Below are positions 44,980-60,080 of a stretch of 64,000 bases of DNA, in pieces. The stretch covers positions 1 through 64,000 of the forward strand of contig JARFNK010000013.1 of the NCBI GenBank assembly GCA_029167225.1, written 5' to 3'. Made by a program: the position numbers and the translations under genes. Numbering within the stretch: the stretch's first letter is position 1; every line of letters starts with the position of its first letter. Source of the stretch: Sphingobium arseniciresistens. Lineage in GTDB: Bacteria; Pseudomonadota; Alphaproteobacteria; Sphingomonadales; Sphingomonadaceae. A model generated the notes under the pieces. It saw only the letters and a program-made list of their open reading frames with translations. It did not search any database and was not told the origin of the DNA.

Positions 44980-45627
44980 CTATCGTTCGAACAGCCGGTC
45001 GGCGAGCGGCTCACGCCCTTGCCAGTCGCGCCGTTCCAGTTCCGGCGTGTCGAAATCCTCTTCCGGGTAGCCGATGCAGAGCAGGGCGACCAGGGTCCAG
45101 CTCATGGGCACATCCAGCAGGCCGCGCACATGCCGCGGATCGAGGATGGACACCCAGCCAAGCCCGATCCCGCGCGCCCGCGCCGCCAGCCAGAGGGTGT
45201 GGATCGCCATGACCGTCGAGTAGCGCAGCATCTCGGCCATGGTCGCGATGCCGAGGCCGAAGCCGGCCTGCGGCTGCTCGTCGCAGAACACCGCCATCAA
45301 CTCGGGCGCCTCGCGCACGCCGTGGAGTTTCAGCGACAGATATTTCTCCCGTTGGTCCTGCGACGTATATCTGGCTGCGGCCTGTGCATTTTGCGTGTCG
45401 ATATGCTCGGCAAGCTCCGCGCGAAGTGCAGGCGTCGTGATGCGGACGAAGCGCCAGGGCTGGGCATTGCCGACGGACGGCGCGCAGCATGCGCTCAGTA
45501 GTAGTGCCTGCATCTCCGCTTCCGGCACGGCGCGGCGCTGGAAATGGCGGACGTCGCGGCGCCAGTGCAGCAATGTTTCCAGCTGCGCGCCAAAGGCGGT
45601 GTCGAACAGGGGAGGGGGCTGGGTCAA
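44980..45627 (-). CDS. bluB: 5,6-dimethylbenzimidazole synthase BluB
   Basis: A 215-residue flavin destructase of the nitroreductase fold that cuts FMNH2 with oxygen to form the lower ligand of vitamin B12. It shows the family's RRDVRHFQRRAVPEAEM opening, SACCAPSVGNAQPWRFVR, and LGWVSILDPRHVRGLLDVP. It is the last gene of the cob operon and overlaps the cobO stop as ATGA. Its presence means the cell can make its own DMB aerobically. Confidence 0.95.
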   Translation of the reverse strand: MTQPPPLFDTAFGAQLETLLHWRRDVRHFQRRAVPEAEMQALLLSACCAPSVGNAQPWRFVRITTPALRAELAEHIDTQNAQAAARYTSQDQREKYLSLKLHGVREAPELMAVFCDEQPQAGFGLGIATMAEMLRYSTVMAIHTLWLAARARGIGLGWVSILDPRHVRGLLDVPMSWTLVALLCIGYPEEDFDTPELERRDWQGREPLADRLFER

Positions 45628-46289
45628 AAGTCGATTCCCCGTTGAGCGCTGACGCTCGTGCGGGAGGGGTGCTTGATCCTTTTCATGTCGGTGACGAGAT
45701 CGGCGGCCGCGATCAGCGCATCGGGCGCGTTGCGGCCGGTGATGATGATATGCTGCATCTCGTTCCTGGCGGTCAGTGCCGCCAGCACCTCATCCAGCGG
45801 AAGATAGGCGTGATGCAGAGCGATGTTCAGTTCATCGGCCAGGATCATGTGGCAGTTCGGATCGCGGAGCATGCGCTCGACCTCTGCCCACGCGGCGCGG
45901 GCAAGCGCGACGGCCGGTAGCCTGTTCGGCCGTTTCGTAGCGCTCTCTGCTCCGCTCGGCTGGCAATCTGTTCCGGTATCTGCCGCAACGTCGACCGGGA
46001 AATCTGCCCTGAAATCGATATGGTCGGGGAAGGCCTCGAAAATCCGTCTTTCTGCGGTCGCTGCCGTTCCACCCCTGCACTGGACCACGCCGACCTTCAT
46101 GCCATGGCCGACCGCGCGGACGACCATGCCCAGCGCGGCGCTGCTCTTTCCCTTGCCCTCGCCGGTGTGGACGATCAGCAGCCCTTTCTCGCGGGTCTTG
46201 TTCTCCATGATCCGGGCGCGCGAGGCCTGCTTCTTGCGCATGCGGTCGGTGTGGCGTTCTGCGAGCGCATTGTCATTCATGACTGGCAT
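45624..46289 (-). CDS. cobO: Cob(I)yrinic acid a,c-diamide adenosyltransferase CobO (variant)
   Basis: A 221-residue CobA/CobO-type adenosyltransferase with the ATP P-loop IVHTGEGKGKSSAALGM, LADELNIALHHAYL and the terminal KHPSRTSVSAQRGIDF. It adds the adenosyl group to the cobalt of corrinoids. After FPDHIDFRA, the usual segment with GEGFTW and QDR is missing and replaced by a longer, unrelated stretch (from VDVAADTGTDCQPSGAES on) that runs into LARAAWAEVERM. None of the three frames encodes the missing motif. The stretch VVQCRGGTAATAER also replaces the usual VVQFIKGxxxTGER. Starts at 46289 and 46280 are possible; the gene overlaps cobF. Confidence 0.85.
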   Translation of the reverse strand: MPVMNDNALAERHTDRMRKKQASRARIMENKTREKGLLIVHTGEGKGKSSAALGMVVRAVGHGMKVGVVQCRGGTAATAERRIFEAFPDHIDFRADFPVDVAADTGTDCQPSGAESATKRPNRLPAVALARAAWAEVERMLRDPNCHMILADELNIALHHAYLPLDEVLAALTARNEMQHIIITGRNAPDALIAAADLVTDMKRIKHPSRTSVSAQRGIDF

Positions 46290-47052
46290 CCGTTCCGCCC
46301 AATCTGCGCATCAGATAGACATCCATGATCCAACCATGCCGGGCGCGCAAGGCCGCGCGCGTCTCTCCAATCCGTGGCCCGACATCTGAGAGGCGCCCGT
46401 GGACTAGCGCCTCATGCGGCATGCCGAGATAGGCGCCCCACCAGATGTCGATGCCCTGCGGGTCGATGGCTTCGAAAGCGCAGCCACTGTCGAGCATGAC
46501 GACGGCGCTGTCGGCGCCGTGCGGCCAGCCATGTGCCCGCAGCTTCCGCCCAGTGGTGATGACGACCGGCTCCGCAAGCCTGTTGAGCGGGATCGCGTGC
46601 GCCGCCGTCAGCGCCTGAATGCTGGTAATGCCGGGAATGACGTGGATGTGCATGTCCATTCCATCCGCGCGCAGCCGGTCGGCGATCCGCAATGTGCTGT
46701 CGTAGAGCGAGGGATCGCCCCAGACGAGCAGGGCGAGCGTGCCGCCAAGGGGGAGATGAGCGGAGATCTCCCGCGCCCATGCCGCCGCGATCGCATCGTG
46801 CCAGTCGTTGACTGCATCCAGATAGCGGGTCGTGCCATCGCGCACCGGCAGGTCGAATTCCACGATCCGCGTCGCTGAATTGGCGTCGAGAACCGAATGA
46901 CATATGCCGCGCCGCAGATCGATCAGGTCCGACTTCGTGCTGCCCTTGCGCGGCAGCAGAATGAGGTCGGCGCGCTTCATCGCCTGAACCGCGGCGCCGG
47001 TCAGATGATCGGGATTGCCCGTGCCGATGCCGATGAGGTGGAGGTCGATCAT
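46273..47052 (-). CDS. cobF: Precorrin-6A synthase (deacetylating) CobF
   Basis: A 259-residue methyltransferase of the tetrapyrrole family that methylates C1 of precorrin-5 and releases acetate in the aerobic route. It begins MIDLHLIGIGTGNPDHLTG and has LLVWGDPSLYDSTLRIADRL and VIPGITSIQALTAAH. CobF is specific to the oxygen-dependent pathway. The start at 47052 lies 13 bp after the cobM stop; the longer frame upstream overlaps cobM and is not CobF-like. Confidence 0.93.
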   Translation of the reverse strand: MIDLHLIGIGTGNPDHLTGAAVQAMKRADLILLPRKGSTKSDLIDLRRGICHSVLDANSATRIVEFDLPVRDGTTRYLDAVNDWHDAIAAAWAREISAHLPLGGTLALLVWGDPSLYDSTLRIADRLRADGMDMHIHVIPGITSIQALTAAHAIPLNRLAEPVVITTGRKLRAHGWPHGADSAVVMLDSGCAFEAIDPQGIDIWWGAYLGMPHEALVHGRLSDVGPRIGETRAALRARHGWIMDVYLMRRLGGTDASHE

Positions 47053-47065
47053 GATCCGGGCGTGC

Positions 47066-47851
47066 TCATTCACTGGCGCCCGCGAAGCGCGAGGATGCTT
47101 CCTGCGGGCGGAAACGGCGATCATAGCTGGCGGCATAGAGGCTGCTTTCGCCGAAGTCCTCCGGGTCGAGCACCCGGCCGACCATGATGATCGCGGTGCG
47201 TTCCATGCTGCCAGCGACCGCCTGCTCGACATCCGCCAGCGTTGCCCGGATGATCCGCTGGTCCGGCCAGCTTGCGCGCCAGACGACGGCGACCGGGCAA
47301 TCTGCACCATAGGCGGGGACAAGATCGGCAACCACCTGCGCCAGATTGTGGATAGAGAGGTGGATGGCGAGCGTCGCCCCGGTCGCGGCGAAATTGGCAA
47401 GGCTCTCGGCGGGCGGCATCGCGCTCGCCCGGCCCGGCGTGCGGGTGAGGACGACCGACTGGGTCAGCCCCGGCAAGGTCAGTTCGGCTTCCAGCGCGGC
47501 GGCCGCGGCGGCAAAGGAGGGGACGCCGGGGGTGATGGTGAAGGGGATATCCATCGCGCGCAGCCGGCGAAGTTGCTCGCCCATGGCCGACCATACCGAG
47601 AGATCGCCCGAATGAAGGCGTGCGACATCCTGCCCGGCGGCGTGGGCGGCGGCGATCTCTGCCATGATGTCGTCGAGTGCCAGCGGCGCAGTATTCACGA
47701 TCCGCGCATCGGCTGGGCAATGGCCAAGCACCGCTCCGGGCACGAGCGATCCGGCATAGAGGCAGACCGAGGAGGCGGCGATCAGGTCGCGGCCGCGCAG
47801 GGTGAGCAGGTCGGGCGCGCCGGGGCCGGCGCCGATGAAATGGACGGTCAT
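47066..47851 (-). CDS. cobM: Precorrin-4 C11-methyltransferase CobM
   Basis: A 261-residue SAM-dependent methyltransferase: [20 protein letters not shown] at the N-terminus, [32 protein letters not shown] and [13 protein letters not shown] near the end. It converts precorrin-4 to precorrin-5. The start overlaps the cobE stop as ATGA. Confidence 0.95.
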
Positions 47852-48228
47852 TGCGGATGTCCTTTGGCAATGGCGCAGGTCGCCATGCGATCGATGGAGA
47901 TGTGGCGCGTTGCGATCAGCTGAGCGGCCGCTCCTGCAGCGGCCAGCGCCGATGCCTCGGCGACGCTGCCACTGTTGCGTTGGGCGAGGCTGGCGGGGGA
48001 TGTGGTGGACGTGGCCATGGCCTCCAGCGCTCCGGCGTCGATCCCGATCACGGGCAGGCCCATCAATGCTGCGAGCGGCGCCAGCGCCGGCGTCTTGTCC
48101 TGCGGCGCGGCGAGCATGGTCACGGGCGAATGCCCCTGTTGCGCGCGCATGAGCGCCGACTGCAGTGAGGCGAGGCTGGCCGCTCCCCGGAATCCGAAGC
48201 CAGCGACGATCACAGCACTACGCTCCAC
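47848..48228 (-). CDS. cobE: Cobalamin biosynthesis protein CobE (CbiG C-terminal type)
   Basis: A 126-residue protein corresponding to the C-terminal domain of Cbi[53 protein letters not shown] and KGHPQ at the end. The exact role in the aerobic route is unsettled; it may stabilise labile intermediates. It overlaps the end of cobL by 19 bp. Confidence 0.9.
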
Positions 48229-49418
48229 TGGACAACCGGATAGCTAGCCCGCCATCCCCGGCGAGTGCCGATCGGCGAGGCTTCGGAAAGTTCGATGCGC
48301 AGCAGGCTGCCGCCGCGTTGCGCGTGCCATTGCGCAAGCAGCGCTTCGGACTCGAGCGTCACGGCGTTCGCCACCAGCCGCGTGCCGGCGGGGACGCGAT
48401 CCCAGAGCGTGGTCAGTAGCGCATCCGACAGGCCGCCGCCGATGAAGATGGCATCGGGCGTGCCAGCGAGGGGCAAGGCATCCGGCGCGCGTCCCACGAT
48501 CATGTCAAGGCGATCGACACCCAGCCCGGCGGCATTGGTGCTGGCCCGCGCGGCGCGCACCGGATCGGCCTCGAACGCCACCGCGCGGTTGGCCGGGTGG
48601 GCGAGCAGCCATTCTATGCCGATCGATCCCGATCCCGCGCCAATGTCCCACAATATCTCGCCGGGGCGAGGTGCGAGGGCTGAGAGGGTCAGGGCGCGGA
48701 TCGGGCGCTTGCTGATCTGCCCGTCATGATCGAACCAGGTATCGGCAAGGCCGGATGTCGAGGGCAATGCAGCGCCATCGCCCGCGCATGTGATTGCGAC
48801 GGCAACCGGATGCACGATGTTCCGGAGGTCAAATGCTTCGGCGGTCGTCCGGGTGATCCGCTCGCGCGGTCCGCCCAGCGCCTCCAGCACATGCAGCGGC
48901 GAAGCGCCAAAACCCAGATCGACAAGATAACGGGCAAGCGCCGGAACCGCATCGCCATCGCGGAGCAGCGCGATGATACGCCGATCGGGCGCCAGATATG
49001 GCCGCAGGCGCGCGAACGGTGCGGCATGGAGACCGAGGCAGGCGGTGTCATGGATCGCCCAGCCCAGTCGCGCGGCGGCAAGTGCGAAGGTCGAGGGGGC
49101 GGGATGAGCCTCCCATTCCCCCGGATCGAGGTTGCGCGTGATCACTGCGCCCGCGCCGAACCAGAAGGGGTCGCCCGACGCCAGCATCGCGACGCGCTGC
49201 CCACGCAGCGCGAGCAGGCGCGCAATTCCTTCGCTGAACGGAACGGGCCATTCCACCGTGGGGCGGTCCCATGCGCCGAGCAGCGTGAGATGCCGCGCGG
49301 AGCCCATCACCACTTCCGCCTGCGCGAGCGCTTGACGGCTCGCAGGGGCCAGTCCATCCGGTCCGTCCTCGCCAATGCCAATGATCGTCAGCCATGCCGA
49401 TCCGGGAGTTTCAGCCAT
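48210..49418 (-). CDS. cobL: Precorrin-6Y C5,15-methyltransferase (decarboxylating) CobL
   Basis: A 402-residue fusion of two methyltransferases. The N-terminal CbiE-like half has [20 protein letters not shown] and [14 protein letters not shown]. The C-terminal CbiT-like half has [20 protein letters not shown] and [12 protein letters not shown]. It methylates C5 and C15 and decarboxylates precorrin-6B. Its start codon (49416-49418) overlaps the start codon of cobK on the other strand, so the cobL leader must lie inside cobK or the read must come through from cobJ. Confidence 0.95.
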
Positions 49419-50166
49419 GCCGAATATCCTCCTTCTGGGCGGCACCATGGAGGCAAGTGCGCTCGCCCGGTTGCTGGCGGCGCGCGGGATGCAGGCGACG
49501 CTGAGCTATGCCGGCCGGGTCGAGCAGCCCAGGCCACAACCCATTCCCGTTCGCGTCGGCGGTTTTGGCGGAGCGGAGGGGCTCGCCGGCTACCTGCGGG
49601 AACAGGGCGTCACGCATATCGTGGATGCCACCCATCCCTTTGCCGCGACCATGAGCGCGAACGCGGTGCAGGCCTCGGCGATGGCCTGCGTCGTGCATAT
49701 CGCGCTGACCCGTCCGGCATGGACGCCGGTCGCCGGGGACAGATGGACCCTTGTCGCCGATATCGATGGCGCCGTCGCGGCACTGGATGGCCCGCCGCGC
49801 CGGGTGATGCTGGCGATGGGGCGGATGCATGTGGAGGCATTCGCCGCCCGGCCGCAGCATCATTATCTGCTGCGCTTCATCGATGCGCCGAAGGCTCCGC
49901 CGACGCTGCCGCATCACCATGTTGTCGTCGATCGCGGCCCGTTCAGCGCTGAAGGCGACATCCGGCTGATACGGGCACATGAGATCGACCTGGTCCTCTG
50001 CAAGAATGCCGGGGGCAAGGGGGCGGAGGCCAAGCTGATCGCGGCGCGCGAACTGGGCCTGCCGGTCATCATGATCGACCGCCCCGCCATGCCGGCGCGC
50101 ACGGAGGTCCATGCCCCCGAAGATGTCATGCGCTGGCTGGATCATGGCGCCGACCGCGGCGTGTAG
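49417..50166 (+). CDS. cobK: Precorrin-6A reductase CobK, inverted within the cob operon
   Basis: A 249-residue NADPH-dependent reductase beginning [20 protein letters not shown], with THIVDATHPFAATMSANAVQA, MLAMGRMHVEAFA and VLCKNAGGKGAEAKLIAAREL. It reduces precorrin-6A to 6B, the step between CobF and CobL. It is the only cob gene on the plus strand in a run of minus-strand genes. Its ATG overlaps the cobL ATG head to head and its stop lies 25 bp inside the end of cobJ, so it has no free sequence on either side. It is antisense to any transcript that runs from cobJ into cobL. Confidence 0.95.
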   Translation: MPNILLLGGTMEASALARLLAARGMQATLSYAGRVEQPRPQPIPVRVGGFGGAEGLAGYLREQGVTHIVDATHPFAATMSANAVQASAMACVVHIALTRPAWTPVAGDRWTLVADIDGAVAALDGPPRRVMLAMGRMHVEAFAARPQHHYLLRFIDAPKAPPTLPHHHVVVDRGPFSAEGDIRLIRAHEIDLVLCKNAGGKGAEAKLIAARELGLPVIMIDRPAMPARTEVHAPEDVMRWLDHGADRGV

Positions 50167-50924
50167 AGGATCGGTCCCGCGGCCCGTTTGATCAGGCGCG
50201 TCTGGCTGGAACCGACGATGACCATCGTCCGCATGTCGGCCATCTCCGGGGTCGCCTGCGTCAACGGCACGATCTGCAACCGTTCCTCGGGGGTGGAGAC
50301 GGCGCGGGCGAACAGCATGGGGCGATCGTCCCGGCAGGCCTCGCGCAGCACCTCCAGCGCGCGGGCGAAGCCTTCGGGGCGCGCCTTCGATCGCGGGTTG
50401 TAGAAGGCCATGGCGAAGTCGGCCTCCGCCGCCAGCCGCAGCCGGCGCTCGATCAGCGGCCAGGGCTTGAGATTGTCGGAGAGGTTGATCGCGCAGAAAT
50501 CATGGCCCAGAGGCGCGCCGGCACGGGCACTGGCCGCTAGCATCGCGGTGATGCCGGGCAGCACGCGAATGTCGAGCTCGCGCCAATGATCGGGGCCTGC
50601 CTCCAGCGCCTCGAACACGGCGGCGGCCATCGCGAAGACGCCGGGGTCGCCCGAGGACACGACCACGACACGCCGCCCGGCCGCCGCGAGGTCCAGCGCA
50701 TGGACGGAACGGTCCAGCTCCACGCGGTTGTCCGACGGGTGCAGGGTCAGCCCTTCGCGCGGCGCCACGCGCGCGACATAGGGGATATAGCCGATGACGT
50801 CGGTGGCCTGCGCCAGCACGGCGGTCACTTCCGGCGTCACCATGGCTTCATCGCCCGGACCAAGTCCCGCGATGGCGATCCAGCCGCCGGTGCCGTTCAC
50901 GCTGCCTGCCCTGCCCACGCTCAT
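50142..50924 (-). CDS. cobJ: Precorrin-3B C17-methyltransferase CobJ
   Basis: A 260-residue methyltransferase that contracts the ring and methylates C17. Segments are IAGLGPGDEAMVTPEVTAVL, VVSSGDPGVFAMAAAVFEAL, VLPGITAMLAASARAGAPLG, AMAFYNPRSKARPEGFARAL and VIVGSSQTRLI. Its ATG overlaps the cobI stop; its 3' end overlaps the 3' end of cobK. Confidence 0.95.
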   Translation of the reverse strand: MSVGRAGSVNGTGGWIAIAGLGPGDEAMVTPEVTAVLAQATDVIGYIPYVARVAPREGLTLHPSDNRVELDRSVHALDLAAAGRRVVVVSSGDPGVFAMAAAVFEALEAGPDHWRELDIRVLPGITAMLAASARAGAPLGHDFCAINLSDNLKPWPLIERRLRLAAEADFAMAFYNPRSKARPEGFARALEVLREACRDDRPMLFARAVSTPEERLQIVPLTQATPEMADMRTMVIVGSSQTRLIKRAAGPILYTPRSAP

Positions 50925-51682
50925 GGCCTGCGCCCCTGGCCGTGGATCAGCAGGATCGAGAAATAGGGGGTGACGCTCTCCGCCTCGACCAGGCGGGTGA
51001 CGCGCTGGCTGGGCATGGCCGCATGTTCGACCAGCCAGGCGCTGTCCTCGCGGCCGGCAGCCGCCACCGCGCGGCGCAGCTTGGCGAGGTTGCGGCCGAT
51101 CTTCATCACGACCAGCGCATCGGTATCGCGGATGCGGCGGCCCAGATCGGCCTCAGGCAGGGTCGCCATCAGGACCGTGAGCACGTCGTCGCCCCAGGTG
51201 ATGGGGGCGCCCGTCGCGGTCCAGGCGCCCGCCATGCCGGTGATGCCGGGAACGACCTCTACCGGGACGATGCCCGACAGGCGGCTGTGCAAATGCATGA
51301 ACGAACCGTAGAAAAAGGGATCGCCCTCGCACAGCACCACCACATCCTCGCCGGCCTGCGCCAGCGCGGTCAGGCGTGCCGTGCAGTCCGCATAGAAGGC
51401 CGAGAGGCAGGCATTGTAGCGCGGGTCGGACAGCGGGATTTCCGTCGTCACCGGATATTCCATCGGGATTTCGACGGCGTCGGCCCGCAGCATCCCGTCG
51501 GCGATGCGCCGGGCTTGCCCGGGCCTTCCGGCCTTGCGGAAATAGGCGATATGGCGGGCGCCGCGCACCAGCCGGTCGGCACGGACGCTCAGAAGATCCT
51601 GCGCGCCGGGGCCAAGGCCCACGCCATGGATGGTGCCGAGCCTGTTTTCGGGCTTGGTCGCGGTCATCAGTGCGCTGCTCAT
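50921..51682 (-). CDS. cobI: Precorrin-2 C20-methyltransferase CobI
   Basis: A 253-residue methyltransferase with GVGLGPGAQDLLSVRADRLV, VVLCEGDPFFYGSFMHLHSR, EVVPGITGMAGAWTATG and VVMKIGRNLAKLRRAV. It converts precorrin-2 to precorrin-3A. The start at 51682 overlaps the cobH stop as ATGA. Confidence 0.95.
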   Translation of the reverse strand: MSSALMTATKPENRLGTIHGVGLGPGAQDLLSVRADRLVRGARHIAYFRKAGRPGQARRIADGMLRADAVEIPMEYPVTTEIPLSDPRYNACLSAFYADCTARLTALAQAGEDVVVLCEGDPFFYGSFMHLHSRLSGIVPVEVVPGITGMAGAWTATGAPITWGDDVLTVLMATLPEADLGRRIRDTDALVVMKIGRNLAKLRRAVAAAGREDSAWLVEHAAMPSQRVTRLVEAESVTPYFSILLIHGQGRRP

Positions 51683-52308
51683 TCGGCGCGGCTCGCAAGC
51701 GCGTTGATCGCCGCGACGGTGATGGCGCTGCCGCCCAGCCGCCCTTCCACGATGCAGCAGGGCACGGGCGGCGCTGCCCACAGCGCGGCCTTGGATTCCG
51801 CCGCGCCGACGAAGCCCACAGAGCAGCCGATGATCGCCGCCGGGCGCGGGCAGGCGGGGTCTTCCAGCATGTTGAGCAGGTGGAACAGTGCCGTCGGCGC
51901 ATTGCCGATCGCCACCAGCGCGCCCTTCAGATGCGGGCGCCACAGCTCCAGCGCGGCCGCCGACCGGGTATTGCCCATCGCCCGTGCCATGTCCGGCACT
52001 TGCGGCGCGTTGAGCGTGCAGATGACGGGATTGTCGGCCGGAAGGCGCGTGCGCGTCACGCCTTCGGAGACCATCCGGGCATCGCACAGGATGGGCGCGC
52101 CCCTCTCCAGCGCGGCGCGAGCCTCTACCGCGAACCGATCGGAAAAGCGGATGTCGCGGGCAAGCTCGACCATGCCGGCGGAGTGGATCATGCGGACGGC
52201 GACCGGCTCTTCCTCGCTAGAGAAACGGGCAAGGTCCGCTTCCGCGCGGATGGTGGCGAAGGATTGGCGATAGATCGCCGCCCCGTCTGTCTCATAGCTA
52301 TGCGGCAT
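51679..52308 (-). CDS. cobH: Precorrin-8X methylmutase CobH
   Basis: A 209-residue methylmutase that moves the C11 methyl to C12, giving hydrogenobyrinic acid. It has IRAEADLARFSSEEEPVAVR, the active-site histidine in RMIHSAGMVE, and IGNAPTALFHLLNMLED. It overlaps the cobG stop as TGATG and the cobI start as ATGA. Confidence 0.95.
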   Translation of the reverse strand: MPHSYETDGAAIYRQSFATIRAEADLARFSSEEEPVAVRMIHSAGMVELARDIRFSDRFAVEARAALERGAPILCDARMVSEGVTRTRLPADNPVICTLNAPQVPDMARAMGNTRSAAALELWRPHLKGALVAIGNAPTALFHLLNMLEDPACPRPAAIIGCSVGFVGAAESKAALWAAPPVPCCIVEGRLGGSAITVAAINALASRAE

Positions 52309-53438
52309 CAAACGGCTCCAAAATGATCGAGAACCTCTGCGCTGCTCAGCCCGGCGCGGATGGCGGGGCCGCCGGCTCGGGCATCGAGGGCAAGGTCGAA
52401 AAGGCCGTCGCGGCCGGTGAGGGTGACAGGGGCGGGGAGCACGCGGGCGCAGCCCTTGGCACAGCCCGAGACGTGCAGGCGTCCATCCACATGCGGCGCG
52501 AGGCGGCGGGCGAGATCGCGTGTCTCCACCGTGGCCTGCGGGCAGAGGGGCGCGCCGGGGCACGCATCGACACGCGCCAGTGGATCGCCGGGGGCCAGCA
52601 AGAAGCCGTCTGCCTCCCGGATGGGCGCACCTTCGACAAGCAGCATGCGCCACGGCGTGATCCGTAGCATCTGCAGGTGGTCAGAGCCCATCAGCGCGGA
52701 AAGCTTGTGTCCCTCGACCTGGCCGAAGGGCAGGCGATAGGCGACAGCATTCGGGCGCTGTCCCGGCAGGAGAGCAGGCGCAGGAGGGGCCGGGCGCCAG
52801 TCACCTTTCGCCCAAGCCGGAAGCACGGCCATGTGCCGTGCCATCCGCCCCGCGTCGCTGCCGCCAGTGTCGGCGAACCAATGTGCCAGCGCGATGAGGG
52901 CATCGACTTCAGCGCCCTGCTGAATCGCTCTCCCGGTCGGGCGTCCATCCGCACGCAGGATCAGGCCGCCTTGATCGCCGCGCTCGATACGGAAGTCACC
53001 CGGATCGCCGGTTAGCACGGGGGCAGAGCCCGCATCGATGGCGAAACCGACCTTTGGCGGCAGGTCGGGCAGTTCGTCGAGGCGTGCGGCCAGCCCGGTT
53101 GCAATCCGTGCGGTATCGTCGCCCGCCTGCCATTCCGGCGCGACAAGGATGTTGTGCCGCGCTTCCGCGACCGGATCGGGGGCGACCAGTCCCAGAGCGA
53201 TCAACCGTTCGAGCAGCACGGGCCAGCCATTGTCTTTGACGCCGCGAATCTGGAGGTTGGCGCGGCTCGTCATGTCGATCAGGCCGTTGCCATGCGCGAT
53301 CGCCGCCTCGCACAGCCCCAGCACCTGCGCACGCGTCAGTTGCCCCAGTCGAGGCCGCACGCGCACCAGCAGGCCGTCGCCTGCGGCCATTGGATGCCAT
53401 GCATCGGGGCACCAGCCCTTGATCGCGAAGCCGCTCAT
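52308..53438 (-). CDS. cobG: Precorrin-3B synthase CobG
   Basis: A 376-residue sulfite/nitrite reductase-like iron-sulfur monooxygenase that hydroxylates precorrin-3A with oxygen; it marks the aerobic pathway. The two ferredoxin-like halves are visible (SRANLQIRGV), and the cluster cysteines are in ACPGAPLCPQATVETRDLA and HVSGCAKGCARV. The start at 53438 overlaps the cobN stop as ATGA. Confidence 0.93.
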   Translation of the reverse strand: MSGFAIKGWCPDAWHPMAAGDGLLVRVRPRLGQLTRAQVLGLCEAAIAHGNGLIDMTSRANLQIRGVKDNGWPVLLERLIALGLVAPDPVAEARHNILVAPEWQAGDDTARIATGLAARLDELPDLPPKVGFAIDAGSAPVLTGDPGDFRIERGDQGGLILRADGRPTGRAIQQGAEVDALIALAHWFADTGGSDAGRMARHMAVLPAWAKGDWRPAPPAPALLPGQRPNAVAYRLPFGQVEGHKLSALMGSDHLQMLRITPWRMLLVEGAPIREADGFLLAPGDPLARVDACPGAPLCPQATVETRDLARRLAPHVDGRLHVSGCAKGCARVLPAPVTLTGRDGLFDLALDARAGGPAIRAGLSSAEVLDHFGAV

Positions 53439-56400
53439 GCACGTTCCTGCAGGCTGGCGATGATCGAGTTGCGCCGCGTCTGCCACAGCCCGGCGTCGTG
53501 CAACGCGGCGAAGCGCACCTCCATCGCGGCCAGCGCGGCGGGATTTGCCTGCGCAAGGAAATCCCGCACCTCGGGCTGGCCAAGTGTCGCATCATGATAG
53601 AGATCGATCAGCTGCGGCGGCAGGCCGCCGGCCAGATGCGCGAAGGCGCCCAGATGATCCAGCGTCGCGGCCAGTTCCGCGCCGCCGCGAAAGCCGTGGC
53701 GCATCATGCCCGCGACCCAGCCGGGATGCGCCGCGCGTGACCGCACGACGCGGGCGATTTCCTCGGTCAGGGTCCGCGCGGCGGGGTGATCGGGATCGCG
53801 ATTGTCGAGATGGTACAGCGTCGCGCTGCCCCCGGCGACGGACTGGGCGGCGGCAAAGCCGGCCTCATGTGCGGCATAGTCGGCGGCGAGCAGCAGGTCG
53901 GTTTCCGGCAGATCCTGCAGGTGGACGAAGGCGTCCGCGCCGGCGACGCGCAGCCGCAGGCCGTCCGGGTCGGCATGGTCGCTGTCGGTGTCCAGCGCAT
54001 GGTCGGATGCAGCGAGCCATGCCTCGCCCGCCGCCTGCCGGGCCTCGGCGGTGTAGACATCGGCGGCGTCCCCCATGCCCAGGCCGAAATGGCCGGGGCG
54101 CGGGCCATAGACGCGCGGGGAGGGGGGCTTGCCGACGAAAGGGTTCCACTCCGGCGGTTCGTCGCGGCTGTGCAGCGCGCGCACGGCCTGCCCGAAAAGC
54201 GCCGGAAGTGTCGGGAAGGCATCGCGGAACAGGCCCGAGACGCGCAGGGTCACGTCGATGCGCGGACGGTCGAACAGGACGAGCGGCAGGATCTCGATGC
54301 CCGTGACCCGTTCAGAGGCCATGTCCCATTCCGGCTTCGCGCCCAGCAGGTGCAGCGCCATCGCGAATTCCTCGCCCGCGGTCCGCATGGTCGCCGATCC
54401 CCACAGGTCGACGACAAGGCCGCGCGGATAATCGCCATGGTCCTGCAGGTGCCGCCGGACCAGCTCCTCTGCGAGCCTGACCCCCTGCGCATGGGCGGCG
54501 CGGGAGGGGACGGCGCGCGGATCGATCGTATAGAGGTTGCGCCCGGTCGGCAGCACGTCGGATCGCCCGCGATAGGGGGAGCCGGACGGGCCAGGGGCAA
54601 CGCGCCTGCCGTCGAGCGCGGCGAGCAGCCCCGCACGCTCGGCATCGCCTTGTTCGCCCCGGCCGAAGACATGCAGCCCGTCGCCGAACTGGCTCTCCTT
54701 CACGTCGCAGACAAAGCGGTCGATCCGGGTGATGACCTCGCCCAGCGACATGGCGGCGCCGATGCCGAGTTCGGCGTCCAGCCCCAGCGCCTCAGCCTCT
54801 TCGCGGATCGCGATGCAGAGGCGGTTGCGTCGTGCTGGATCGAGCCCGTCGGCATTGGAAAACTCGTCCAGCAGCGTTTCGATGCGGGCCAGTTCCGCGC
54901 TGCTGCCCGATGGTGCGAGCGGCGGCGGGGCGTGGCCGATCGTGACCGCGCCGATCCTGCGCTTGGCCTGTGCCGCCTCACCGGGATCGTTGACGATGAA
55001 GGGGTAGATGATCGGCATCGCGCCCGTCAGCGCTTCGGGCCAGCAGTCGCTGGACAGGGCGACGGATTTGCCCGGCAACCACTCCAGCGTCCCATGCGCG
55101 CCGACGTGGATGATGGCGTCCGCACCCTGCGCGCGCAGCCACAGGTAGAAGGCGACATAGGCGTGGCGCGGGCAGCGGGAGAGGTCATGATAGTCGGCCT
55201 CGCGCGTGGCGGGGATGCCGCGTTCCGGCTGGAGCGTGAGCGTGATGGCTCCCGCCTGCACGGCTGCGAAGGCGAAAGCCCCGTCCTGCAGCGCGGGATC
55301 GTCTTCCGGTCGCCCCCATGTCGAGAGAAGGTCCGCGCGCGCGGCGGCGGGAAGGGCATCCATGGCCTTGCGATATTCCGCCAGCGGCCAGGAGATACGC
55401 TTGGACAAGAGCGCGTCGGCAAGATCGGGGTGCTCCGCAGCAGCATAACCCGCCTCCGCCAGATCGCCCAGCATGGCCTGCATCGATGCCAGGGCGTCGA
55501 GACCCACGGCATGGGCCATCTGATAGGATTTGCCCGGATAGGTCGACAGGACCAGGGCGAGGCGTCGCTGGTCGCGTGGCTTGCTCCCCAGGCTGATCCA
55601 GCGCGCGACCCGGTCGGCAATGACATCGATGCGGACGGGGTCGGCCGCATGCGCCCCGCGTGCGAACTCAAGATCGGGATCGCGCGGGGCGGTATCCTTG
55701 AAGCTGGCGACGCCGGCGAAGATGCGCCCGTCCACTTCGGGCAGCACGACATGCATGGCAAGATCGGTGGGGGAGAGGCCGCGCGATGCCTCCTGCCACG
55801 CCGCGCGGCTAGAGGTCGCCATTGCCAGCTGGAACACCGGCACCTCCGCGCTGTCCAGAGGCGTGCGGCCATCCTCGCCGCGCGCAGAAAAGGCGGTGGC
55901 GTTGACGACGGCCTTGGGGCCCAGCACGCGCACCCAGCGCGCGATCCAGGCGCGCACGCCCTCTGCCTTGAGCGAAGGCGCGAACAGGCCCAGCACATCG
56001 AAGCCGCGCCGCGCGAACGCCGCATGCAGCGCCTCGAACGGATCGACATCGGCCGCCGTCAGATAGGAGCGATAGAAGATCAGCAGAATGCGGGGGCGGG
56101 TGGAGGTCAGCGCGAACGCCGCCGGGCAGGCCACGCCCACGGCTGGCTGCCATGCGGCCACGGTCGCAATCGCCAGAGCGCCTTCCGCCGCGCTGGCCTG
56201 AAACCCCGCCGCCTGCGCCAGAAGGGCAAGCGCCGCCTGCGCCGCCGCCGTGCCCCCGGCATCGCAAAGCCCGGCCAGTTCATGCAGCATCGGCTCACCC
56301 AGGGTCGAGACCGCGCTCAGCCGCCGGTCCGGGCGGCCATCGCCGGGGACGACGGCCAGCGCGATCCCGCGCGCCCGCGCCAGTGCCTCGACCTGCTGCA

Positions 56401-56698
56401 GGCCATAGGACCAATAGGATGCGCCACCGATCAGCCGGATGAGGATGGCCTTTGCCCCCGACAATGTCTGCTCGACATAGGTATCGACCGACAGCGGGTG
56501 GGCGAGCGCCGCCAGATTGGCGAGCCGAAGCGAGGGTAGGGCGCTCCCCGCCGCACGGGCGCGACGCCACCCTGCCGCGAAGGCCCCGAGGTCGCTGTCG
56601 GAAAAGGACAGCACCACAAGATCGGCGGGCGTCTGCCCCAGATCCTGCGGGACAGCCATTTCCTCGATCCCATGGCTTTCGCGGAAGAGGACGTGCAT
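53435..56698 (-). CDS. cobN: Cobaltochelatase large subunit CobN
   Basis: A 1,087-residue CobN/magnesium-chelatase H-type protein that holds hydrogenobyrinic diamide while CobST drive ATP-dependent cobalt insertion. Typical blocks are GGASYWSYGLQQVEALAR, NATAFSARGEDG, ADAIIHVGAHGTLEWLPGKS and LFRDAFPTLPALFGQAVRAL. It is on the short side for the family. CobS and CobT are not in the window. It follows cobW after 6 bp. Confidence 0.95.
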   Translation of the reverse strand: MHVLFRESHGIEEMAVPQDLGQTPADLVVLSFSDSDLGAFAAGWRRARAAGSALPSLRLANLAALAHPLSVDTYVEQTLSGAKAILIRLIGGASYWSYGLQQVEALARARGIALAVVPGDGRPDRRLSAVSTLGEPMLHELAGLCDAGGTAAAQAALALLAQAAGFQASAAEGALAIATVAAWQPAVGVACPAAFALTSTRPRILLIFYRSYLTAADVDPFEALHAAFARRGFDVLGLFAPSLKAEGVRAWIARWVRVLGPKAVVNATAFSARGEDGRTPLDSAEVPVFQLAMATSSRAAWQEASRGLSPTDLAMHVVLPEVDGRIFAGVASFKDTAPRDPDLEFARGAHAADPVRIDVIADRVARWISLGSKPRDQRRLALVLSTYPGKSYQMAHAVGLDALASMQAMLGDLAEAGYAAAEHPDLADALLSKRISWPLAEYRKAMDALPAAARADLLSTWGRPEDDPALQDGAFAFAAVQAGAITLTLQPERGIPATREADYHDLSRCPRHAYVAFYLWLRAQGADAIIHVGAHGTLEWLPGKSVALSSDCWPEALTGAMPIIYPFIVNDPGEAAQAKRRIGAVTIGHAPPPLAPSGSSAELARIETLLDEFSNADGLDPARRNRLCIAIREEAEALGLDAELGIGAAMSLGEVITRIDRFVCDVKESQFGDGLHVFGRGEQGDAERAGLLAALDGRRVAPGPSGSPYRGRSDVLPTGRNLYTIDPRAVPSRAAHAQGVRLAEELVRRHLQDHGDYPRGLVVDLWGSATMRTAGEEFAMALHLLGAKPEWDMASERVTGIEILPLVLFDRPRIDVTLRVSGLFRDAFPTLPALFGQAVRALHSRDEPPEWNPFVGKPPSPRVYGPRPGHFGLGMGDAADVYTAEARQAAGEAWLAASDHALDTDSDHADPDGLRLRVAGADAFVHLQDLPETDLLLAADYAAHEAGFAAAQSVAGGSATLYHLDNRDPDHPAARTLTEEIARVVRSRAAHPGWVAGMMRHGFRGGAELAATLDHLGAFAHLAGGLPPQLIDLYHDATLGQPEVRDFLAQANPAALAAMEVRFAALHDAGLWQTRRNSIIASLQERA

Positions 56699-56704
56699 GA
56701 GCGA

Positions 56705-57748
56705 TCAGCCCTGAAGCGCGACCCGGATCGTCTCGATGTCGAGGCGGTCATGCTCGGCGATGACGACGAGCGCGCTGGCGCGCGGCTCACCGGGGCGCCA
56801 CGGCCGGTCATATTGACTGCGCACGCGCGCGCCGACCGCCTGGACCAGCAGGCGCATGGGCTTGCCGGCCACCGCAGCATAGCCCTTCACGCGCAGAATG
56901 CCATGGTCGCGCGCCAATCCCTCGATCCGGTCGGTCAGATCGGCCGGATCGGTGATTTCCCCGATCGCGATCACCGCGCTGTCGAAATCCTCATGCTCAT
57001 GCTCATGCTCGTCCTCGCCATCATGATGGGAGGGGCGGGCGGCCAGATCGTCCTCTGCGGCGACACCAAGGCCGAGGATGACGGAGGGATCGATCACGCC
57101 CTCGACCAGTTCGACGATAGGCAGGGCGCGCACGGATTCCGCCGCGATCACGGCGCGGGCCGCAGCCACGCCTTCCGGCCCAGCCAGATCAGCCTTGGTC
57201 AGCAGCACCATGTCGGCGCAGGCCAGCTGGTCCTCGAACACTTCGGACAGCGGCGTCTCATGATCGACGCTCGGGTCGGCGAGGCGCTGGGCATCGAGCG
57301 CGGCAACATCCGGCGCGAAGCGGCCGGCCGCGACCGCTTCCGCGTCCGCCAGCGCGATGACACCGTCCACCGTGATGCGCGAGCGGATATCTGGCCAGTC
57401 GAACGCCTTGAGCAGGGGCTTGGGCAGGGCAAGGCCGGATGTCTCGATCAGGATATGGTCGGGGCGCGGCTCCAGCGCCAGAAGGGTCTCGACCGTAGGG
57501 ATGAAATCGTCCGCCACGGTGCAGCAGATGCAGCCATTGGCCAGCTCGACGATATTCTCGGCCGGGCAATCGGGGATGGCGCAGGATTTCAGGATGTCGC
57601 CGTCCACGCCCAGCGTGCCGAACTCGTTGACGACCACGGCCAGCTTCCGCCCGCCGGCGTTGCGGATCAGGTGGCTGATGAGCGTGGTCTTTCCGGCGCC
57701 CAGAAAGCCGGTGATGATGGTGACGGGCACCTTGGACAGGTCGGACAT
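56705..57748 (-). CDS. cobW: CobW-type metal-chaperone GTPase
   Basis: A 347-residue G3E GTPase with the P-loop TGFLGAGKTTLISHLIR, the metal-binding GCICC (in ELANGCICCTVADDF), LLTKADL and a histidine/acid-rich stretch (HHDGEDEHEHEHED, about residues 240-255). CobW supplies cobalt for chelation. It is the first gene of the cob operon, directly after a cobalamin riboswitch. Confidence 0.95.
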   Translation of the reverse strand: MSDLSKVPVTIITGFLGAGKTTLISHLIRNAGGRKLAVVVNEFGTLGVDGDILKSCAIPDCPAENIVELANGCICCTVADDFIPTVETLLALEPRPDHILIETSGLALPKPLLKAFDWPDIRSRITVDGVIALADAEAVAAGRFAPDVAALDAQRLADPSVDHETPLSEVFEDQLACADMVLLTKADLAGPEGVAAARAVIAAESVRALPIVELVEGVIDPSVILGLGVAAEDDLAARPSHHDGEDEHEHEHEDFDSAVIAIGEITDPADLTDRIEGLARDHGILRVKGYAAVAGKPMRLLVQAVGARVRSQYDRPWRPGEPRASALVVIAEHDRLDIETIRVALQG

Positions 57749-57806: not shown

Positions 57807-57944
57807 TCGGCGCGCGACGACGGGCGGGCGCGACGATGCACCCGTTACCACGCACCATGCAGCCCCAGCCGCAATGGTCGTCGCTCAGACGGAGAATTAC
57901 CGTGCCGTGACCATCCCCTGGACCAAGGCAAGAGCGACCGGTGC

Positions 57945-58160
57945 GCTGGCAGGTCTCCTGGCTCGCGGGTCACAGCTTGATGCACGCCTTCCCAGGCCCG
58001 GCATGCAGATGATGCGTCCGGCCCAGTGGCTGCCCTTTTCCGAAGAAAGGGCGATGTGCATCGCGCTATCCGCTTACAGTTGCAGGGACAGCCGCGGATT
58101 TGGAGGCCGGAAGCCCCCGCACCGCATTCCCATTCAAGCCCTTTCGGGCACCGGCGCGAT
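57945..58160 (-). promoter_or_regulatory. Cobalamin riboswitch of the cob operon
   Basis: Read on the minus strand the stretch shows the conserved order of a cobalamin riboswitch: GCCGGTGCCCGAAAGGGC, then GGGAATGCGGTG, a GGCTTCCGGCC-type stem, the strongly conserved GCGGCTGTCCCTGCAACTG with AGCGGATAG, then GCCACTGGGCC and the closing AGCCAGGAGACCTGCCAG. It lies about 200 bp upstream of cobW, so B12 binding should lower expression of the whole cob operon. A GTCGCTC/GAGCGAC pair downstream (57892-57938 region) is a likely part of the expression platform. Confidence 0.92.
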
Positions 58161-58263
58161 CATCGAAGGTCAGGTTGCCCCGGCCTTCGTTGATCGCCCT
58201 AGACCAAAATTCGGGCCAAGCCAATTGATGTCGTCGCGTCGCCGCGATCATCAGGCCGGCCGC

Positions 58264-59373
58264 TCAAGCCGCGACCCTCACCTCGATCTCGTCGAAGCGC
58301 TTCCAGCGGTATATCGCAAAGCTCACGATCCAGCAGAGAATGAACAGGCCGATGATGGTGAAGCCAAGGCTGTTGAAATGCTCGCCCAGGTCCGCGGCGA
58401 TCGTCCAGGGCGCGCCGGTGAGCGCAAGTTTGTCGCCGATCAGCGCCATCGTCTCGATGCCGCCGATGCCGATCGCGACGAGCGCGGAGATCAGCGTGAT
58501 GGTGATATTATAATAGAGCTTGCGGATCGGCTTGATGAACGCCCAGTCATAGGCGCCCAGCATCACCACGCCGTCTGCCGTGTCGATCAGCGCCATGCCC
58601 ACCGCGAACAGCGCTGGCAGGACGAGGATGGTGCCAAGCGAGAGGCCGTCCGCCGCCTGGCTCGCGGACATGCCGAGGATGGCGACCTCTGTGGCGGTAT
58701 CGAAGCCCAGGCCGAAGAGGAAACCGAGTGGCGCCATGTGCCAGCTGCGGTTGACCAGCCTGAACATCGGCCGGAAGATGCGCGAAAGCAGCCCGCGATT
58801 GCCGAGTAGCAGGTCCATGTCCTCCTCGACATAGGTGCCGCCGGCCCGGACATGGCTGAAGGTCTTCCAGACCGATCGCAGGATGGTGAGGTTCATCGCG
58901 GCAATGGTGAAGAGGAACAGCGCCGAGATCATCGTCGCCACCACGCCGCCGATTTGCTTGAACGCCTCGAACTGCGAAAGCGCGCTGGTGGTCAGCGCGA
59001 TCGTGATGGCGGCGATGGCGATGATGGCCGAATGGCCGATCGCGAACCAGAAGCCGACCGTGATGGGGCGCTGGCCATCCTGCATCAGCTTGCGGGTCAC
59101 ATTGTCGATCGCCGCGATATGATCGGCGTCGACCGCATGACGCAGGCCAAGGCCCCAGGCGAGCAGCGCCGTGCCCAGCATCAGGGGCTGGGCATGGAAC
59201 AGCGACCAGGCCCAAAGCCAGGCGCCGATGTTGGCGGCCAGCAGCAGCCCGAACAGCCCGCCGATCCGGCGGCGTAGACGGGGCGGGGAATAGGTTTGTG
59301 TGGCGGAGGCGGTAGAAATGGCCTGCGGCCTTGCAATGATATCGTCTCGATCGCGAACATGATCCACGAACAT
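58264..59373 (-). CDS. NiCoT-family cobalt/nickel transporter
   Basis: A 369-residue membrane protein with eight or so helices and the NiCoT signature RHAVDADHIAAIDN in the second helix, plus LFGLGFDTATEVAILG. It imports Co2+ (or Ni2+) using the membrane potential. The start at 59373 is preceded by GGAGG; the frame is open to 59544 but the extra part overlaps the riboswitch leader. A cobalamin riboswitch of its own indicates cobalt as the physiological substrate. Confidence 0.92.
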   Translation of the reverse strand: MFVDHVRDRDDIIARPQAISTASATQTYSPPRLRRRIGGLFGLLLAANIGAWLWAWSLFHAQPLMLGTALLAWGLGLRHAVDADHIAAIDNVTRKLMQDGQRPITVGFWFAIGHSAIIAIAAITIALTTSALSQFEAFKQIGGVVATMISALFLFTIAAMNLTILRSVWKTFSHVRAGGTYVEEDMDLLLGNRGLLSRIFRPMFRLVNRSWHMAPLGFLFGLGFDTATEVAILGMSASQAADGLSLGTILVLPALFAVGMALIDTADGVVMLGAYDWAFIKPIRKLYYNITITLISALVAIGIGGIETMALIGDKLALTGAPWTIAADLGEHFNSLGFTIIGLFILCWIVSFAIYRWKRFDEIEVRVAA

Positions 59374-59556
59374 GGTCCTCCGGCGTCTGGCGACGTGGCC
59401 GGGGCGTGCCGTTTGCGAACGGTCGGCACGCATGGCGGCCGGACGCGCTTTGCGGCCGACACACGTCACCGATGCGGCCCCCGCCGCTCGTTCGTCGCTC
59501 AGACGGAGTTCACCGTGCCATGGCCATCCCCTGGGCCAGGGCAAGAGCGACCAGAC

Positions 59557-59770
59557 GCCGGCAGGTCTCCTGGCTCGCGGGTCATCGCTTGATGCACGGC
59601 CTTCCCAGGCCTCGCAGGATTTAGCGTCCGGCCCAGTGGCTGCCCCTTCGAGAAGGAGCGATGTGCATCGCGCTATCCGCTTACAGTTGCAGGGACAGCC
59701 GCGGATTTGGGAGCCGAAAGCTCCCGCACCGCATTCCCATTCAAGCCCTTTCGGGCACCGGCGCGATCAG
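59557..59770 (-). promoter_or_regulatory. Cobalamin riboswitch of the cobalt transporter
   Basis: It has the same order of elements as the copy before cobW, including GCGGCTGTCCCTGCAACTG, GCCACTGGGCC and AGCCAGGAGACCTGCC. Long stretches are identical between the two copies, among them about 50 bp around the core. The peripheral stem reads GGGAGC..GCTCCC rather than the cobW version, so base pairing is kept while sequence differs. It ends about 185 bp before the transporter start. Confidence 0.92.
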
Positions 59771-60080
59771 TCAGGACCGGAGGGAAACCCCGGTCCTGCA
59801 AGCGGCATAGCTGGCTAGCGAATGGATGCCAAACAGAAGTTTGGGGCGCATATCATTCGTGGCAAATTGCAATGAAATATTGTCATTCAAGTGGATGAAA
59901 TTCAGTGGCAATTGTTAACTTCTATTAACATCTGCATCGCCACGGCGATAATGATATAATTTTTCGCATAAATACAACCTCTTGGAATTTTAGGCTTTGG
60001 CAAAAAACGAGGCCGTCTCTCCTTTTTCTATAATTCTTTTTGGGGGTGGCTGATGGCCATTGTTCAAGGGGTTAATTATA
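59771..60080. promoter_or_regulatory. AT-rich leader of the TonB-dependent receptor
   Basis: No gene is seen. The stretch is much richer in AT than its surroundings. A Fur-like sequence GATAATGATATAATTTTTC (59947-59965) matches the classical 19-bp iron box at about 14 positions, and a GTTAA-N6-TTAAC dyad lies near 59916. These are weak but suggest metal-dependent control of the receptor. Confidence 0.3.

Follow-up and report, generated by a model that had tools for sequence, protein, structure and literature searches.

This study asked how the cob operon of Sphingobium arseniciresistens could be translated across cobK, a gene that lies inside it on the opposite strand. The stretch analysed, hereafter the window, comprises 64,000 nucleotides (nt; positions 1 to 64,000 of contig JARFNK010000013.1), in which cobK is read from the plus strand between the minus-strand genes cobJ and cobL. 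The answer that we propose is an open reading frame (ORF), here called antiK, which runs opposite cobK from the stop codon of cobJ to the start codon of cobL. As judged from sequence comparison, it is close to certain that selection keeps this antisense frame open, and quite likely that it acts as a ribosome relay, which would let translation of the operon mRNA continue through the cobK stretch and on to cobL. The genes and junctions concerned are the following:

49417-50166, plus strand: cobK, precorrin-6A reductase, the embedded opposite-strand gene (Pfam PF02571 CbiJ/CobK, expectation value (E) 1.8e-70; NCBIfam NF005968, E 3.6e-98)
50142-50924, minus strand: cobJ, precorrin-3B C17-methyltransferase (NCBIfam)
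48210-49418, minus strand: cobL, precorrin-6B methyltransferase, a CbiE-CbiT fusion (NCBIfam)
49411-50145, minus strand: antiK, a 244-codon ORF antisense to and in register with cobK, the proposed ribosome relay from cobJ to cobL (ORF list and comparison)
50142-50145, minus strand: ATGA, in which the antiK start ATG overlaps the cobJ stop TGA
49411-49418, minus strand: ATGGCTGA, in which the antiK stop TGA overlaps the cobL start ATG, over 8 nt
49416-49419: CATG palindrome formed by the start codons of cobK (plus strand) and cobL (minus strand), read from the sequence

These coordinates agree with the preliminary description of this DNA, which had placed a plus-strand cobK between cobJ and cobL, with start codons that share a CATG and a 25-base-pair overlap between the 3' ends of cobK and cobJ (50142-50166). 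Its claim that the minus-strand genes are otherwise packed without gaps also held, since the other minus-strand cob genes overlap by 1-19 nt or are separated by at most 13 nt. Gene starts were set by N-terminal motif, and that of cobI (51682) was chosen from two possible ones. antiK was absent from the earlier account, though present in the window's ORF list. When it is counted, the cob operon contains no large gaps, and there is no hole between cobJ and cobL.

With regard to the comparative material, genes were labelled in 275 loci, five of which (L013-L017) were dropped as weak matches without a real cobK. Both cobL and cobJ were opposed to cobK in 169 loci; 166 of these passed the distance and stop checks, and 161 had start codons for both genes that were picked blind to ribosome-site strength, the cobJ stop positions being independent of the choice of start. 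Representatives sharing less than 80% CobK identity numbered 123 of the 161 loci (126 of the 166 at an earlier stage), and a guanine-plus-cytosine (GC) content of at least 0.5 was found in 120 of these representatives and in 156 of the 161 loci. The mean four-fold codon identity of the representatives is below 0.5; the loci are still related, so the p-values given below are not to be taken literally. Left out were, from the class sample, the partial matches of G295, G321, G419, G445, G477 and G588 and the second copies in G400, G521, G535 and G611, and, from the genus, G670 together with weak or extra matches of G646, G689, G709 and G711.

In-register antisense stops can arise only from the codons TTA, CTA and TCA in cobK, which are rare in GC-rich genes. 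Given an expectation computed from the rest of each locus, cobK was found to be strongly depleted in them. Across the 120 representatives with a GC of at least 0.5, whole cobK contained 19 antisense stops against 124.3 expected, and three against 109.9 when ten codons were removed from each end. The 19 stops are confined to the two ends of antiK, which correspond to the first 27 and the last 9 cobK codons. In the interior, defined as cobK minus its first 28 and last 12 codons by bounds that were fixed after the stop positions had been seen, there were none in 25,390 codons, against 95.6 expected; none was found in all 156 loci of this GC range either (122.5 expected). TTA, CTA and TCA are the sole codons with a count of zero in the interior (19.3, 35.9 and 32.2 expected), and the next lowest odds ratio is 0.60. 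Within the same interior bounds, the control genes gave 255 stops against 223.7 for cobL (119 loci), 117 against 119.7 for cobJ (120 loci), 154 against 168.2 for cobM (80 loci), 148 against 125.8 for cobG (81 loci) and 58 against 65.9 for cobH (84 loci). No avoidance was observed in 72 cobK genes outside the opposed layout (163 stops against 118.7 expected).

The codon choice within amino acids shows the same pattern. Relative to the other cob genes of the same locus, the odds ratio in cobK of the 123 representatives was 0.24 for TTA and CTA among leucine codons and 0.44 for TCA among serine codons, compared with 0.92 for other A-ending codons and 1.07 for CTT and TCT. The corresponding values for 78 cobK genes outside the layout were 1.57 (TTA and CTA) and 0.94 (TCA). 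Among the 23 loci with a GC between 0.60 and 0.65, the frame was wholly open in cobK in 20, in cobJ in one and in the first 250 codons of cobL in two.

The open frame is joined to both of its neighbours. In the loci with a GC of at least 0.5, the cobJ stop lies in the phase of antiK, so that NTGA provides a start, in 155 of 156, and the start is ATGA, GTGA or TTGA in 146 of 156; among the representatives, 119 of 123 are in phase, 93 of them with ATGA and 18 with GTGA. At the other end, the antiK stop overlaps the cobL start by 1-29 nt in 125 of 156 loci, and by exactly 8 nt in 92. In 148 of 156 loci both ends are coupled through same-strand stop and start codons that overlap or lie very close together: antiK starts at most 30 nt before or 15 nt after the cobJ stop, and its own stop overlaps the cobL start by up to 29 nt or precedes it by up to 25 nt. 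The CATG register is present in 101 of the 161 opposed loci and in 81 of the 123 representatives, and, as the ATGNNTGA junction requires, T is the third letter of the second cobL codon in 67 of the 76 representatives with CATG, compared with 12% of codons over the whole gene. Where cobK and cobJ overlap, that overlap alone could lock the phase. In the ten loci in which they are separated by a gap of 2-170 nt, all ten are in phase, eight start at ATGA or GTGA, and the antiK frame reaches the cobL start region in nine. The class sample taken by itself gave 25 of 27 loci in phase and 23 with ATGA or GTGA, with 25 of the 27 at a GC of at least 0.5. The annotated plasmid loci of S. meliloti (TTGA), R. 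johnstonii and M. extorquens (both GTGA) are likewise in phase. Annotated cobK genes carry an in-register stop at codon 9 in S. meliloti and at codon 24 in M. extorquens, and none in R. johnstonii, Azospirillum B510 and Methylibium.

Two ribosome-binding sites of the window lie within the opposite gene:

49427-49434, minus strand: cobL Shine-Dalgarno sequence, core AAGGAGGA, antisense to cobK codons 4-6 (duplex energy -11.7)
49404-49408, plus strand: cobK Shine-Dalgarno sequence GGGAG, antisense to the first cobL codons (duplex energy -6.9)

The cobL site, at -6.53 kcal/mol, is stronger than the -4.15 kcal/mol expected from synonymous versions of cobK (better in 66 of 81, p 1e-9), and two controls, namely loci with a cobL start more than 15 nt away (n=21) and loci in which cobL does not adjoin (n=99), both gave p 0.98. 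The site of antiK within the 3' end of cobJ also exceeds its null, with -4.23 compared with -2.57 (p 5e-10) and the better value in 84 of 111 cases. For the cobK site within the cobL codons the effect is weaker: 56 of 78 sites are better (p 1e-5), with no single one reaching significance, and in the control 14 of 21 loci are better (p 0.1). The preliminary description had proposed that a full operon transcript would be antisense to all of cobK. Such an RNA gains support here, because a selected cobL site inside cobK and an open frame coupled at both ends would be hard to explain unless the stretch is translated.

We therefore consider how a relay of this kind would work. The mRNA of the cob operon would run through the entire cobK in antisense, and ribosomes would translate that stretch. 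antiK mostly has its start in an ATGA or GTGA that includes the cobJ stop, preceded by a ribosome site that is weak yet under selection, and it ends at or near the cobL start codon. It would allow ribosomes to re-initiate on leaving cobJ and, after some 730 nt, to pass translation on to cobL. Its job would thus be the passage of ribosomes rather than a product. Polarity in bacteria is ascribed to the loading of Rho on untranslated RNA (PMC12548453); left untranslated, the roughly 0.7 kb before cobL-cobM-cobF would be exposed to Rho. The relay would presumably spare the mRNA from Rho-dependent termination and decay and keep cobL-cobM-cobF expressed, and would perhaps strip the cobK mRNA from its complement. 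cobK itself would be made from its own plus-strand RNA, which must have its start within the 5' end of cobL or ahead of it. That such a relay ORF of about 244 codons is distributed across a bacterial class, selected to be open and coupled and not for its amino acids, which would make this a translated noncontiguous operon, is in our judgement reasonably likely.

Several observations weigh against the relay. The cobM, cobI, cobH and cobW genes of the window are likewise free of in-register antisense stops, so the window alone proves nothing, and its own antiK ribosome site is weak (duplex energy -3.3). In the comparison, cobI is also depleted in antisense stops, far more mildly (55 against 88.3, n=119). 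The sense+2 frame of cobK is stop-poor as well relative to a within-gene codon shuffle (0.70, compared with 0.87 for other cobK genes), a shuffle that can test only frames other than the in-register one. As exceptions at the junctions, locus L054 is out of phase, L132 lacks a coupled start and has a stop within the cobK-cobJ gap, and Azospirillum B510 has the layout with a cobJ stop out of the phase of the bridge. Five AT-rich loci (GC below 0.5; L037, L112, L114, L115 and L176) keep the layout with 57 interior stops against 44.7 expected, and none of the five is in phase. The relay is therefore not indispensable, since these loci retain the layout in spite of having no bridge; the parts of the bridge disappear jointly. 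A synonymous-constraint profile of cobL, cobK and cobJ gave zero windows above threshold and located no hidden promoter patch; it misses even the cobL ribosome site, which makes it a blunt test against a protein. Finally, as the ribosome site of cobL is itself strong, re-initiation may be less important than protection of the RNA.

Given that antiK has the marks of a gene, with a start, a selected ribosome site, a stop and an open frame, it could be a true overlapping gene that encodes a functional protein. Moreover, some of the cobK codons that begin with T when read in antisense occur less often than in control cobK genes (CAA 0.65 against 1.08, GTA 0.66 against 1.53), which resembles an ordinary coding preference. 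The third positions of cobK are the first positions of the antiK codons, and they vary to much the same extent as in cobL and cobJ: the four-fold codon identity of cobK was within 0.02 of that of cobL and cobJ in all four divergence bins covering about 12,390 pairs (for example, 0.489, 0.485 and 0.487 for cobK, cobL and cobJ, respectively). As cobK third positions are not extra conserved, a protein product of antiK appears unimportant. No cobK window rose above the synonymous-constraint threshold, blunt as this test is, and a Pfam scan of antiK returned no match. AlphaFold2 predicted no fold for antiK (predicted local distance difference test (pLDDT) 35.4, predicted template modelling score (pTM) 0.11), from an alignment of 38 sequences made up of the window's own and 37 of 68 listed antiK sequences, whereas the CobK control reached a pLDDT of 93.8 and a pTM of 0.87 with 18 sequences. 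With ordinary four-fold identity and no predicted fold, we hold a conserved antisense protein to be unlikely. By these measures, the open frame is kept and the peptide is not, and the antiK peptide is probably a by-product.

The remaining alternatives do without translation of antiK. In an ordinary noncontiguous operon, an untranslated antisense stretch would pair with cobK mRNA, with mutual control through RNase III and polymerase collision. The anatomy is like that of the S. aureus men operon (as described in the review PMC7154746), and no terminator-like sites were detected on either strand of 47800-51000; nor were promoter-like sites found there, in a scan that used only the sigma-70 consensus, and both scans say little for GC-rich alphaproteobacteria. 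An untranslated stretch, however, would not stay stop-free, in phase and coupled at both ends, which leaves this explanation a small chance. Regulation may be present on top of the relay. The chance is slimmer still that transcripts are separate, with a cobJ mRNA that stops before cobK and a cobL promoter inside cobK. The strong ribosome site of cobL and the missing bridge in AT-rich relatives would fit this, but the cobJ-antiK junction and the open frame would be left without a reason, and neither the window nor the nine relatives scanned showed a riboswitch within cobK or next to it. Lastly, GC-rich genes often contain long ORFs on the antisense strand, as the four other stop-free cob genes of the window illustrate, and the overlaps could reflect mere packing. 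We reject this idea as having next to no probability, since the whole-gene deficit (19 stops against 124.3) was calculated from each locus and is absent from cobL, cobJ and cobK genes outside the layout; furthermore, the contrast is greatest at moderate GC, and the frame continues through non-coding gaps in nine of ten loci.

The preliminary description had left room for an inversion confined to this one assembly, and had called for a check of its conservation in other sphingomonads and in rhodobacters; the layout is present in both. Every one of the 61 Sphingomonadaceae loci retrieved with a real cobK has it opposed to both cobL and cobJ, as have all 80 named loci (a selected set, the best 80 of 569 relatives listed) and 28 of 129 class-sample loci, and a local inversion is accordingly rejected. 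The further suggestion that the level of CobK gates flux found no evidence. In a quick tree of 163 CobK rows, in which about half of the representatives are included, the opposed layout needs four changes, against about 50 with shuffled labels; the layout is old. The CobK rows of beta- and gammaproteobacteria nest among alphaproteobacterial ones, including those of the Halomonadaceae and Burkholderiales loci L095, L131, L133, L135, L150 and L153, as if CobK had been acquired there by horizontal transfer. In all, cobK was seen opposed to cobL in nine loci of these two groups, the other three being L081, L102 and L279.

The family sample has CobK (PF02571) in 17 of its 249 genomes (12 above the cut-off), the class sample in 136 of 385 and the genus in 53 of 94 (51 above the cut-off). 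The occurrence is thus patchy, with 51 of 94 genus genomes above the cut-off compared with 12 of 249 in the family sample. Ten flanking ORFs from nine non-opposed class loci were compared with Pfam, of which five matched cbiD, two an ABC transporter and three nothing. The five cbiD genes (L159, L166, L188, L205 and L021) lie immediately before cobK on the same strand, and a lone cobK may be the remnant of a cbiD-cobK pair after the loss of cbiD. Azospirillum sp. B510 (L277) has both cbiD and cobK on the plus strand within a minus-strand cob cluster. In L018 and L024, cobK is co-directional with a plus-strand cobM-like gene, in L018 also with a piece of cobL, and in L247 cobH and cobL lie far downstream of cobK on the same strand. 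On S. meliloti pSymB and R. johnstonii pRL11, cobM, cobL and cobJ are all opposed to cobK. The cobL of S. meliloti Ak57 pSymB (L276:4766-5951) is unannotated, and its matches fall in two pieces in different frames.

Crouzet 1990 reportedly dealt with cobF-cobM of P. denitrificans. The geometry itself is not new, because overlaps from cobH to cobL have been published for Ensifer and P. denitrificans (PMC4070679). The menE-menC-MW1733-ytkD genes of S. aureus form a noncontiguous operon (Saenz-Lahoya 2019, as described in PMC7154746), and the preliminary description had likened the cob arrangement to operons of this kind. The likeness stands insofar as an opposite-strand gene lies inside the operon and two RNAs overlap a whole gene, which for cob is deduced from sequence, and we infer that the flanking genes are co-transcribed through cobK. 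It does not extend to the paired stretch, which PMC7154746 calls an internal untranslated region: in cob this stretch is a selected and coupled ORF that bears signs of translation, and so does not appear to be untranslated. The cob operon differs also in that its inner gene belongs to the same pathway and in that the layout is spread through a bacterial class. Compared with termination-reinitiation coupling, as set out in PMC6728339 and PMC12548453, the ATGA-type overlap at cobJ-antiK is the same and a short stop/start overlap is found at antiK-cobL; unlike known cases, antiK seems to be retained solely as a passage, and the whole of it is antisense to an enzyme gene. The ano and laoB genes of E. 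coli O157:H7 (PMC5960689 and PMC5810103) are likewise ORFs opposite annotated genes. ano has 186 bp and laoB is called short, whereas antiK has 244 codons, a conserved layout and amino acids without constraint; of the features expected of an antisense gene, an open frame under selection was found, and amino-acid constraint and a predicted fold were not. No description of an ORF antisense to cobK or of a translated noncontiguous operon was present among the matches listed in the open-licence literature. As far as searched, the geometry is known, the layout is of a known kind and the relay is new.

If the relay operates, a stop-free antisense frame joined on both sides would provide an RNA-free sequence test for read-through of an opposite-strand gene by an operon. 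It would suggest that bacteria can maintain an ORF solely for the passage of ribosomes, and that translation of one strand can determine the synonymous codons of an enzyme encoded on the other, here by the avoidance of TTA, CTA and TCA codons. This bears on the codon optimisation of cobK in vitamin B12 producers, on annotation rules that bar long antisense overlaps and on how operons escape Rho. Since ribosome profiling and RNA-seq data of S. meliloti 2011 are public (GSE206492; PMC10117765), the relay can be tested at once.

The operon and its surroundings comprise the following:

44980-57748, minus strand: cob operon cobW-N-G-H-I-J-[antiK]-L-cbiG_C-M-F-O-nitroreductase (profile matches), with cobW at 57748 and a nitroreductase-family gene, labelled bluB in the preliminary description, at 44980
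57931-58170, minus strand: cobalamin riboswitch 5' of cobW (Rfam RF00174, E 6.5e-23)
58264-59544, minus strand: NicO nickel/cobalt transporter gene
59543-59777, minus strand: second cobalamin riboswitch, upstream of the NicO gene
47848-48228, minus strand: stand-alone gene for the CbiG C-terminal domain, between cobL and cobM (Pfam PF01890)

The second riboswitch and the NicO gene adjoin the riboswitch of the cob operon. The CbiG C-terminal gene is labelled merely "cobalamin biosynthesis protein" in three plasmid relatives.

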